This document shows, one piece after another, positions 1,780-61,541 of a DNA stretch of 64,000 bases. Position numbers and translations under genes: made by a program. The notes beneath the pieces are model-generated. The model saw only the letters and a program-made list of their open reading frames with translations, had not been told where the DNA came from and ran no database searches. Where the stretch lies: NCBI GenBank assembly GCA_022829145.1, contig CM040762.1, positions 25,977,936 through 26,041,935 on the forward strand, read 5' to 3'. Numbering within the stretch: position 1 is the first letter of the stretch; the number at the start of each line of letters is the position of its first letter. This stretch comes from Albula goreensis. Lineage: Eukaryota; Chordata; Actinopteri; Albuliformes; Albulidae.

Positions 1780-1862
1780 ATGGATAGAAATTATCCTGGC
1801 ACAGGATTTGGTGATTTGGGCGCAGGAACGGGATGGAGTTATGAGAGGTCGGCGAAGGCAAG
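1780..1862 (+). CDS. prr12: prr12 coding exon 1
   Basis: Encodes the conserved N-terminus up to YERSAKA. It ends with two bases of a serine codon (AG) before a good donor (gtaagc), and the first base of exon 2 completes that codon. The ATG at 1780 is chosen because the following residues match the known PRR12 N-terminus. Confidence 0.9.
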
Positions 1863-4800
1863 GTAAGCATTTGTGTTCATGCACTGTACTTTAATACACC
1901 GAATGCATAAATATGCTTATGTTACTCAGCAAGCTGTAACAATACCCATGCAAATTGACTCAATCCATTCGGTGCTTTCTGTACAAGTTGGGGTACATCG
2001 CAAATATTACGTGGGTCATTCAGGTATAGTCATCATTGTATTGTTATTATCAGGGAAGGGGGGATCTCGAAAATTCAAGGAATGCGATTGAGAGTTAATG
2101 CATAGTATGGAAGGTAGACCGAAGCAGAAGAGGAGGGAGAGGGGCGACAGGAGGGGGATGGGTTGGAAGATGCAGCTATCGTATCATCAAAAAGAGAAAT
2201 CAACTGTTTTGTTTGCAGGAGAGCATGCTGTCAGTTAGGGGTTTCACGGATGCATTGATGCAGACCTAACTTAACGCAATTACCATATTTGCAGACGCTG
2301 GGAATATGTGTTGACAAAGCCGATGCTTGTGACTGATTCGCGAAACGTATGTCTTAAGATCGCGACTTGGCTAACGTTAGTGTTAGCTGGTTACAGTAGC
2401 GAGCTGTATTGCTTAGCTTGCTGGCTAGCTATCTGCTTTATCGCTGGAAGAAATTAGAATGGCCTGTGTTGTCTGACATAGGGTGGTGCAGTTGTATATT
2501 AGCCAACGTTTGCTGTGTGTAAATCGAGGCATTGGATTTTAGTATCACTTAGCGCAGCAGTCAAACCAATCATATAGAGTAGTGTTCTGATTATATATGC
2601 ATACTACATTAACTTAATCACGATTTTTAGTCACTGAAGAAAACTCAATAGATTGTAGCATATTTACGAGCATGCCAACAACACTTGCTAGTTGGTTAGC
2701 TAGCCGTCTAGCTGCAACTATGCCAGTGCAATCTAATATAACAGCAACCTTAGGAATTTCAAATTGTCCCATGACATCGTATGTATTATGGCTCATTACT
2801 AAGATTTGGTTGCTTAATGAGTAATTAACCAGTAGCCAACTAGTTAATTACAACAACTGGCCCACGACTTCACCTAGCTAGTTTGTGCATAGGATTCAAT
2901 TATTTTCCGAAAGTAATTTATCAAGCTACTGCGATGTTTAGAGCTTTGACATTGCATACGAATAATGTTACCTAAGTGGCGGGTTAAACATACAGATACA
3001 TTGTCAATAAACGCACATTTTTTTCTGTTTGTAAAATGTAAACTTCATGTGTTGCCCGGTGGTAATCGAAGGAAATGTGCTAAAATTATTGAATAACTTG
3101 TCACTTGGTACGATAACTAGCTATCGATACATAGGCAGCTACCTAATTATTATCCGATTTCTGTCAGTGTCGATAATATAGCATTTGTCATTGGCATAGT
3201 AAAGTAAAGTATAGCTATTCGGAATAAAATAAATTGCTAAGAGGTCGCAAGATCTTACCGATGCAAAGTAACGATTTTACTAACTAGCTAGCTACGCTAG
3301 CATACGTGAAGCGAGTTCACTTGGTAGCCCGCTAGCATTAGGTACTCAAGCAACGACTAGCAGTCGCTAGCGATTCTATGCTATCCAGTGGTAGTTCTCC
3401 TGTAGTCTGTAACAGCTAATGTTACACAGTTAGCGCAAGGTGTCAGCTAACTAGCAAGTAAAGAAGCATCAGGTTTTTACGTATCTTCTTTCAAGCACAG
3501 CGCAAACGACAATATAGCTACATTATACAAAAAAAATAACACAACAAAGCTTAAGAGCAGTGGAGACTCAAACTATTAACTTTAAGTACCGTAACCTATG
3601 CTGTGTTTAGTGTGATCCGGGTTGTTAACTGTCACCAGCTTGTTCACATAACAACACATTCGTTAGTATTGTTGTGGAGACTGCTAATTTCTGGACGAGG
3701 CCTACTTAGTCCATAGCCAGTCTGTCTACGTTTCCGGTCGCCGTGACAACCAACATACATATATATTTTTACTAACGTTGTCATCTAGTTAGCAGACTTC
3801 AACTGAGAAGACACCCATCCGCCCACAGGAGAATCATATAGTAATATGACTATCGACTATCTATTGTAGCGAAGCCTGCATTCCAAACAAGGTCATTTCC
3901 AGAACTGTTGGGGTAATTACATTTTTTTTCTGTGGACTAAAGATACAAGATTAGTTGTTACTGTGACATTGTACAGCTGGTAACTACGTCAGCTAGTTAA
4001 TTCTTCAGCTGATTTAGAAAACTAACTATCCAATTTATTCAAAGGCATGCATTATGCCGCCAAGGACATAATTTTTTAGATTAGGGAAATCAATTTAAAC
4101 CAGAATAAGGAGAGAAAAGAATACATCCAGTATTAAAACACTGTGACATTTCTCTACATTTATCATTTAAACATACATTTTTGACTTCTAGTCTCCTCTT
4201 TGAAGAATAGAATATGCAACATGTGAATGACAGGACAATGAATAGGAAAACAAATATCTTTATAGGATAATTCAGTGTTGGTTTATCAACTTAAATGTGA
4301 CTGTAGAGAGACATGGTTAATTCAAATTGGATGGCACTATTTTGCATCATAAGGGACTCACTGTTTTGGACTAATCATAGTGCCTGGCAAAGGAGGGTTG
4401 GTCAAGTTAGTGGCCTCACTCTTTTGTACTTATATCCATTCAAATAATATCAAACTATTTGGACAATAAAACCACTGAGATACAATTCCATTCAATACAT
4501 TTGGGCTGTAGCTTTAACAGTGCACCTGACCTATTATCATTATTATTATTATTACATTTCGTTGTATTATAAATTACACTGTGCACCAAAATTACCACAG
4601 AATCATACAGCAGAATTCTACTTTCTGTCATCCATCACAAAGACAAAAAGGCTGTCAAATCAAAAGAGCTGAATAGTTGTTTTTCACAAAAAAATGTAAT
4701 GGGCACAAAATACCAAAAGTTAAATATGCCACTTACCAGCATTAGGGCAATAATGTAAAATTTTAAAGTAAATTTGCTGTTTTAACAAATATTATTTCAC

Positions 4801-59299: not shown

Positions 59300-61541
59300 G
59301 TAAGTTACCGCATTGGAATAACATATCTTCAACCTACCTGAGCTCATGACAATTTTTTTTTACACATCATGAGGCCAAAGGTAATAACAAGCTCATCTGG
59401 AAAAATATTAACCAACTAACAGGAAAGTCATGATAAGACGGGGGATTTGCAACTGAAGGTGAATGGAAAGCTGCACAATAACATATCTACTGTTGCTATC
59501 ATTTTTATTGAATCCATTTTAAAATTGGTTTGATAGTTCACCCCTATGGCCTGCCCCATTATTTCAAGCAATGACAGCCGCCAGGCCTTTAACCTAAACA
59601 TACCTAATGAAGAGAAGCTTCATAAAATTCTTAACTCACTCTCTAGTTCAAAAGCAGAGGATATATATGGGCTGGACACAGTATTTATGGAAGCACACAA
59701 AGAAGCAATGATAACCCCAATAACTAATTTAATTAATGTATCAATACAAAAGCATGCCTTCCCAAGAGCATGGAAGTAGGCCATTGTAACCCCTGTCTTT
59801 AAAGCTGGAGACCCCCAAGAAGTGAATAACTATAGACAAATAAGTATACTACCAGTAATCACCAAAATTGTTGAAAAGGTTGTAGTTGAACAATCAACTG
59901 AACATCTAAACTCTGGCGGTACCACCTTCTATCCCATGCAGTTTGGATTTACAATTAATCACTCCACTGAGACAGCTTGCAGCTGCCTCCTGGAGACAAT
60001 TAAATCCAAGTTAGATACAATACATTTACATTAAGGACATTTTTTAGACACTCTTATCCAGAGCGACTTACAAGGCAAAGTGCATAAGAATGGTATGAAA
60101 AATGATAAGATAACCCTAGAGAGGTTATCTTAGTCCCAAGTGCCAAGGTGATTGAATAGATTAGGACTCCCCTACCGACTATCTAAGGAGAAAATAAACA
60201 ACAGCCTAGGTTAAAAACAAATCACAGTTTCACACAAGCAAATGAGGGTAGAGACGTTACAAATAGCAAGGGGGGGCGGGGGACTGCAAGCATTGTACTT
60301 GTACTGAAAAAGAGTTATTTAGCTATATCCTGTATGATGCATTGGATTTCAAATCTGAAGTCAATAAACTATTAATAAATAAATAAAATAAATTAAAATG
60401 ACAATAAAGTCTGTCAAATATGAGAGCATATATTATGTTACTGCATATTAAATTTATGTGATATAAATAAGTAATATTTTATTGTATTTGTGGTAATGTA
60501 ATGTTTAATGATGCGTTTCTGATATTCTCATCTAATATGTATAACAACAGAAAACTGAAGAAAGTCGTACAGTTTTTCCCCTTGAAGCAGTCATGGTTTT
60601 CTTCACAGTGATTGGCTGCATCCTCCTCTCCAAAGTTAAGGACTGATTCAGTACATATTACTTCAGGTTCTTCAGATTCTTCTCTTGTGATACCATCCCC
60701 CTGACACCTGCTTTTCACTGTTAATGGCTGCATAAAATACAATACATAATAAATAGAACACAATACAATAAGCTCCTCTATGGTACTCTTCATGTGCACT
60801 TACAAGAAAAGCCTTGTGAAGCCTTGTTTACTTGCCTTACCCATCAAAGCCTGACCTGGCTTCAAGTTGCAGATTACTGACAAGTACTGAGTTTATACCA
60901 TAGATTAGCCCAATGTTAGCCTTGCTGCGTAGGTAGCCAGTGAAATGTTGCATTTGTTTTAATATTTCACTGCTCACCCCTGAGGCCCTGCATGGTGGGG
61001 CTCCTGAGTGCACCGCACAAATGTGGAGTCCATATTTTTCAATCAGGCCTCTAGGACCAGAGAGTTTTGGCTGCTCCTGACTCCCATGTTCAGTTCCTGA
61101 CCTGATAGTTTCAGAGAATGGTTGTGAAATGAGAACTCGCCTAGAGCTCACCTATACTGTAAACATTGAATCATAAATATGAATGTAATAGCTGTCCATA
61201 TTGAAATGCCTCCAGCAACAAGGTGCATTATGGTATGCCATGAAGCAGAAGAGGGATTTGTGACTGTCTCACTGTTTCACTGTCTGTTTGTCCAGGCTTT
61301 TCCATATAGTATGGTTTCATCTGTCTGGGTGAGAAAGGTGTCCAGCTATGTGTTGTGTCTCTCACGCACAGGGGTCATGGTGAGGGACAGCGCCTCCTTC
61401 CAGCGGATGGCCAGAATGATTCTTGAAAGTGGAGAGCGGGAACGGGTGCACAGTAATGGAGTCACCAAGCGAGGGATTGTCGAACAGTGCTGCCACTTCT
61501 ACTGCAATTACTATGACCTAGAGAACTACTGCAACATATAG
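59122..61541 (+). CDS. ins: Preproinsulin-like hormone gene, two coding exons
   Basis: Coding exons 59122-59299 and 61372-61541, joined in phase 1 inside the C-peptide (C|GG), exactly as in vertebrate insulin genes; 115 aa. A hydrophobic signal peptide (about residues 1-20, [19 protein letters not shown]) is followed by the B chain with [23 protein letters not shown] then begins a C-peptide of about 35 residues ending TKR, followed by A chain [12 protein letters not shown] and YYDLENYCN. All six cysteines and both dibasic sites are present, and there is no IGF-type D or E domain. Oddities: B10 is Gln (zinc-binding His lost), B16 Leu, B24 Leu instead of Phe, and one extra Ile after the A21 Asn. 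It could be the teleost second insulin (insb) or an older paralogue; IGF3 is unlikely. Confidence 0.9.
59520..60034 (+). mobile_element. LINE reverse-transcriptase fragment in the insulin-like intron
   Basis: Translates as [20 protein letters not shown], then a TAG, then [34 protein letters not shown] and [20 protein letters not shown]. These are fingers-domain motifs of jockey/L2-type RT. The copy is truncated on both sides, in the same orientation as the host gene, and non-functional. Confidence 0.8.
60030..60260. repeat. Common fish interspersed repeat (TTATCCAGAGCGACTTACA type)
   Basis: Begins TACATTTACATTAAGG and contains AGACACTCTTATCCAGAGCG then ACTTACA, a word familiar from many teleost genomes. 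It abuts the LINE fragment. I cannot assign its class with certainty. Confidence 0.45.
60261..61371. other. Insulin-like gene intron, 3' part: no gene seen
   Basis: AT-rich. A minus-strand open frame (about 60837-61151) has no recognisable domain. Confidence 0.4.
61372..61541 (+). CDS. ins: Insulin-like coding exon 3: C-peptide end and A chain
   Basis: Acceptor tctcacgcacag. Encodes the rest of the C-peptide, the cleavage site KR, and a 22-residue A chain with CC, C and C in standard spacing. TAG at 61539-61541. Confidence 0.9.

Follow-up and report, generated by a model that had tools for sequence, protein, structure and literature searches.

A prr12–ric8–insulin block in the fish Albula goreensis and the ancestry of its insulin gene

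Can a fish insulin gene published as an early-teleost single-gene duplicate instead descend from the early vertebrate genome duplications? The question arises at a locus of Albula goreensis (GenBank assembly GCA_022829145.1, contig CM040762.1, positions 25,977,936 to 26,041,935 of the forward strand), a stretch of 64,000 nucleotides that we call the window. A preliminary description of this DNA reported three genes in the order prr12 (+), RIC8 (-), and insulin (+), and it proposed that they form an extra copy of the vertebrate paralogon that holds RIC8 and the insulin/IGF genes. Our gene models bear out the order and the strands, and the outer ends of the block fall exactly where that description put them, at the prr12 ATG (1780) and at the end of the insulin stop codon (61541). 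We favor, with reasonable confidence, the following interpretation. The window is a prr12–ric8–insc segment that belongs to the TRPM4/TRPM5 paralogon and corresponds to human 19q13.33; the RIC8 gene is a third ohnolog, nearest RIC8A; and the insulin gene is insc, which would encode a poorly assembling and atypical hormone.

The block is real, and most of it is already known, piece by piece. Because RIC8 and insulin are both complete, spliced open frames, the block lies far beyond what chance could produce. Both frames are intact, and we reject the possibility that either gene is a pseudogene. The insulin gene consists of two coding exons separated by a 2072-base intron, and it encodes a complete preproinsulin of 115 codons with a hydrophobic start, a B chain, both dibasic sites (RR and KR), and the six chain cysteines. 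Among the best 60 of 175 PDB matches, proinsulin scores highest (68.8 bits, E 4e-18), while the best IGF-II and IGF-I matches reach 34.8 and 34.0 bits. The top scores to proinsulin, together with the RR and KR cleavage sites, lead us to reject an IGF identity.

Which insulin is it? Three teleost insulins have been described: insa, most widely found beside nipal; insb, always beside hmmr; and insc, always flanked by prr12 and scaf1 (Irwin 2019, PMC6591164). The last is present in 10 of 51 teleosts, and almost all species that do not have it belong to the Euteleostei (PMC6591164). In the window, prr12, which extends from 1780 to about 37.2 kilobases (kb), flanks the insulin gene as it flanks insc, with RIC8 between the two. 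Since prr12 alongside is the published mark of insc, we identify the window insulin, with high probability, as insc, the third of the teleost insulins. An insa or insb gene at a rearranged place strikes us as highly improbable. The neighbors of insa do vary among fish groups, but the published associations of insb with hmmr and of insa with nipal argue against both genes, and the strongest constraint among the three acts on insa (PMC6591164), whereas the window protein departs from human insulin at 11 of 30 B-chain positions and 6 of 21 A-chain positions.

The next question is which RIC8 stands between prr12 and insc. Of the three minus-strand frames scanned with Pfam, two show the Ric8 domain (E 5.6e-58 and E 1.8e-22) and the third does not, which makes the protein a member of the Ric8 family; its best PDB match is Synembryn-A (E 2.9e-132), and Synembryn-B is also matched. 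We compared the protein with two mammalian RIC8A sequences (PDB 6n86 and 6tyl, presumably bovine and rat) and with RIC8B (8el7), a set with no outgroup and no fish RIC8. It is identical to RIC8A at 240 of 444 and 241 of 441 aligned residues (54–55%) and to RIC8B at 205 of 432 (47.5%), while RIC8A and RIC8B are identical to each other at 229 of 425 and 217 of 422 (51–54%). Judged by these mammalian sequences, the window RIC8 is about as distant from RIC8A as RIC8B is. Site patterns were counted over 421 gap-free columns, in 368 of which both RIC8A sequences are alike. Among these 368, the window protein agrees with RIC8A and not RIC8B in 61 and with RIC8B and not RIC8A in 29; it departs from a residue common to RIC8A and RIC8B in 48; all three are alike in 165 and all different in 65. 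By this count, the window RIC8 is nearer RIC8A than RIC8B (61 versus 29, binomial p 0.001) and, with RIC8B as reference, faster than RIC8A (48 versus 29, p 0.04). Maximum-likelihood branches from the common node, in a tree that is unrooted and has no outgroup, measure 0.58 for the window protein, 0.34–0.39 for the two RIC8A sequences, and 0.69 for RIC8B. In a search for RIC8 relatives to serve for rooting, viral_contigs gave 17 pattern matches and genome_contigs 238, with none confirmed in either. Finally, a seven-residue stretch is common to the window RIC8 and RIC8B and absent from both mammalian RIC8A sequences, which only implies a deletion that the window RIC8 does not have in common with them.

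The neighborhood supplies further evidence. We take human 11p15.5 to hold INS, RIC8A, HRAS, IRF7, AP2A2, and TRPM5, and human 19q13.33 to hold PRR12, RRAS, SCAF1, IRF3, AP2A1, and TRPM4. RIC8 is reported to be a trio within the TRPM4/TRPM5 paralogon (PMC13143021, 2026); a teleost locus brings Trpm4, Irf3, and Prr12 together, with Ric8a named in the legend of the same figure (PMC3554528, 2013); and RIC8B lies beside SIRT3.2, separate from the psmd13–sirt3.1 block (PMC9897032, PMC11172991). Taken together, these reports make it most likely that the window RIC8 is the third RIC8 ohnolog, nearest RIC8A. That the third gene is located at prr12 we infer ourselves. The preliminary description had held that the RIC8 and insulin members are ohnologs and not simply ric8a and insa. 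For RIC8 the idea is probably right in kind, and neither gene is probably the plain one, given the published trio and the fact that prr12-flanked insulins are insc.

Does the insulin gene share the ancestry of its neighbor? Because insc adjoins RIC8 and prr12, within a region related to the one that holds INS, it may be an early-vertebrate ohnolog of INS, an ancestry that we entertain seriously while stopping short of favoring it. The adjacency comes from the window itself, and the paralogy of the two segments is drawn from published papers and general background. The fuller notion, to which we give the same tentative standing, is that an INS ohnolog stayed beside a third RIC8 and PRR12 while most other vertebrates lost it, and that in A. 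goreensis, without HisB10, TyrB16, and PheB24, it is a natural insulin that would hardly self-assemble.

Several points count against our interpretation, and they touch each of its parts. Concerning the identity of the insulin, its sequence comparisons cover PDB entries and human insulin, and the window does not contain scaf1, the gene published as the second flank of insc. The window stops 2.5 kb past the insulin gene, and in those 2.5 kb Pfam shows transposase pieces only. The scaf1 gene would be expected beyond the window end. Concerning RIC8, the comparisons cover mammalian RIC8A and RIC8B, and the branch lengths also fit a fast RIC8A ortholog; with no outgroup, the RIC8 data fit such an ortholog as well as they fit a RIC8A-sister ohnolog. 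In its available portions, the TRPM paper gives no location for the third RIC8 (PMC13143021), and the Pax6 paper names the gene at the prr12 locus Ric8a (PMC3554528). The window gene could accordingly be an ordinary teleost ric8a, moved from the psmd13–sirt3 region to the prr12 region and evolving fast here. Its published name, its greater closeness to RIC8A, and its faster branch (48 to 29) are consistent with such a move. However, the trio is reported in exactly the TRPM4/TRPM5 paralogon (PMC13143021), and the distance between the window RIC8 and RIC8A is about that between RIC8A and RIC8B. We consider a relocated ric8a unlikely, and we retain the third ohnolog.

The remaining objection concerns the age of insc. 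With both tree methods used by Irwin, insc, insa, and insb form a group that arose after gar had branched off; each of the cartilaginous and lobe-finned fish searched has one insulin gene; and insc has no neighbors in common with insa or insb (PMC6591164). A single-gene duplication in an early teleost is that author's preferred origin of insc (PMC6591164). On such an account, a copy of an insulin gene landed near prr12, and at most the RIC8 of the block stems from the early vertebrate duplications, an explanation that we would accept about as readily as we would reject it. It requires a chance landing next to RIC8, within a region that is related to the one around INS. Moreover, the published trees are built from short sequences, take shark and lobe-fin insulin as their root, and do not resolve how insa, insb, and insc branched relative to one another; in them, insc has a long branch and a signal of positive selection (PMC6591164). 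Synteny favors insc as an INS ohnolog, and published insulin trees do not. On this point the preliminary description gains less support: the one published analysis that we found puts insc inside the teleosts, more probably as a single-gene duplicate. Nonetheless, the neighbors of insc suggest that it could predate its published teleost origin. A limited search of titles, abstracts, and term counts found no open-license paper that treats insc with ric8 or that joins prr12, ric8, and insulin.

If insc is an INS ohnolog, early jawed vertebrates possessed a pair of insulin genes in addition to the IGFs, and most vertebrates today have a single one through loss. The reading of fish insulin data would change, and a look at one short interval in a handful of genomes could test the age of the insulin family.

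What hormone would the window gene produce? Its product is predicted to be a secreted proinsulin that would be cut at RR and KR to yield a two-chain hormone with three disulfides. Among the substitutions relative to human insulin, Gln replaces HisB10, and Leu replaces both TyrB16 and PheB24. The first of these human residues is a ligand of the axial zinc in the insulin hexamer, and the other two form part of the surfaces for dimerization and for receptor site 1 (PMC9252437, PMC8514764). With all three residues replaced, the sequence predicts a hormone that would form no zinc hexamers, self-assemble poorly, and bind the insulin receptor atypically. Given those properties, insc would probably act as a local signal and not as a hexamer stored in islet granules. 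The one insc expression record in PMC6591164 is a single zebrafish expressed sequence tag clone from gut and internal organs, and that copy is reported not to be intact. With Leu at B24, a position termed invariant (PMC8514764), an intact insulin from nature would serve as a valuable natural experiment on folding and on receptor binding. The B chain also contains another dibasic pair, an RR at residue 26 (B4–B5), which might permit an extra cut.

In mammalian RIC8A and RIC8B, the conserved C-terminal region contacts G-alpha. This part is kept in the window RIC8, including an acidic serine cluster at residue 603, which makes G-alpha chaperone and exchange activity the default expectation; the protein is predicted still to be a cytosolic chaperone and exchange factor for G-protein alpha subunits. 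Exon 3 carries residues that the mammalian proteins lack (Table 1). We disfavor the possibility that its extra stretch is a missed intron. Specifically, under a filter that demanded a pyrimidine tract, a length of at least 80, and preservation of the frame, one candidate intron pair passes, and it starts within conserved sequence and has a poor donor. For these reasons we keep the stretch as coding, a prediction that has modest support and is made from genomic sequence alone. The stretch stays open in 17 of 2000 base shuffles, and other frames there contain as few as one or two stops. Separately, the second RIC8 intron harbors a 2.6-kb minisatellite (45446–48039) made of about 90 copies of a 29-base unit.

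Table 1. Genes and exons of the block, in window positions.
Feature	Position	Strand	Description
prr12	1780..37160	+	First to last recognized coding piece; ATG at 1780
RIC8	40204..50785	-	11 coding exons, 702 codons, one open frame, GT/AG at all ten introns
RIC8 exons 1–6	50785-50696, 50560-50513, 44674-43923, 43116-42981, 42905-42717, 42554-42460	-	
RIC8 exons 7–11	42283-42133, 42044-41949, 41812-41668, 41116-40834, 40327-40204	-	
RIC8 exon 3	43923..44674	-	By alignment, about 156 residues beyond mammalian RIC8A/RIC8B, rich in Ala, Glu, Ser, Pro; predicted coding
Insulin exon 1	59122..59299	+	Signal peptide, B chain, start of C peptide; Pfam Insulin; RR at residue 52
Insulin exon 2	61372..61541	+	Remainder of C peptide, KR at residue 92, A chain, stop; Pfam Insulin

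The first gene is named for its resemblance to PRR12 sequence; for the prr12 pieces tried, Pfam gives no match that backs the name. Further PRR12 pieces lie at about 15190, 19721, 23381, 29708, 30545, 31937, 33241, 36889, and 37116, and also at 31.2–31.6 kb. The last exon was not found over the span to which the gene was followed. One in-frame TAA occurs at 23372–23374, with recognizable PRR12 coding sequence on both sides in the same frame; it may reflect a nonsense mutation, an error of assembly next to an A run, or one copy beginning to decay. Two arrays, 13 kb apart in different prr12 introns (15370–16143 and 29198–29551), are built of a closely similar 37-base unit.

Mobile elements are scattered through the block. 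Between RIC8 and insulin (51.0–59.1 kb), a Pfam scan of six frames with E up to 0.01 gives a sole domain, DUF1759 (54945–55376), which we take to be a domain of BEL/Pao-type retroelements. Tc1-like transposase pieces with DDE_3 occur at 62938–63790 and 33933–34112; those at 62938–63790 are spread over more than one frame and include a Sleeping Beauty helix-turn-helix. Weak reverse-transcriptase matches, below the curated cut-off, lie at 59822–59998, within the insulin intron, and at 11228–11455. Rfam gives no match at gathering score over the window.

Four known systems stand closest to this block. Like mammalian RIC8A and RIC8B (6n86, 6tyl, 8el7), the window RIC8 possesses a nearly full-length Ric8 domain and the conserved C-terminal region; unlike them, it has the extra stretch of exon 3, and the modest identities given above separate it from both. 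It resembles a member of the published RIC8 trio (PMC13143021) in lying beside prr12, in a segment that also holds trpm4 (PMC3554528), while the available portions of the trio paper neither place the third RIC8 by name nor describe a stretch of about 156 residues in exon 3. The insulin gene shares with teleost insc (PMC6591164) its prr12 neighbor, an intact proinsulin with both cleavage sites, and two coding exons. It differs in that ric8a is unnamed in the available portions of that report, whereas here a RIC8 lies between prr12 and insulin, and in that scaf1 is not seen in the window. Finally, the Pax6.2b locus (PMC3554528) contains Trpm4, Irf3, and Prr12, with Ric8a in the same figure's legend; the available portions show no insulin gene there, and by term count the word insulin does not occur in that paper. 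Pax6.2 nevertheless offers a precedent, an early duplicate from a related neighborhood that was lost in birds and mammals (PMC3554528).

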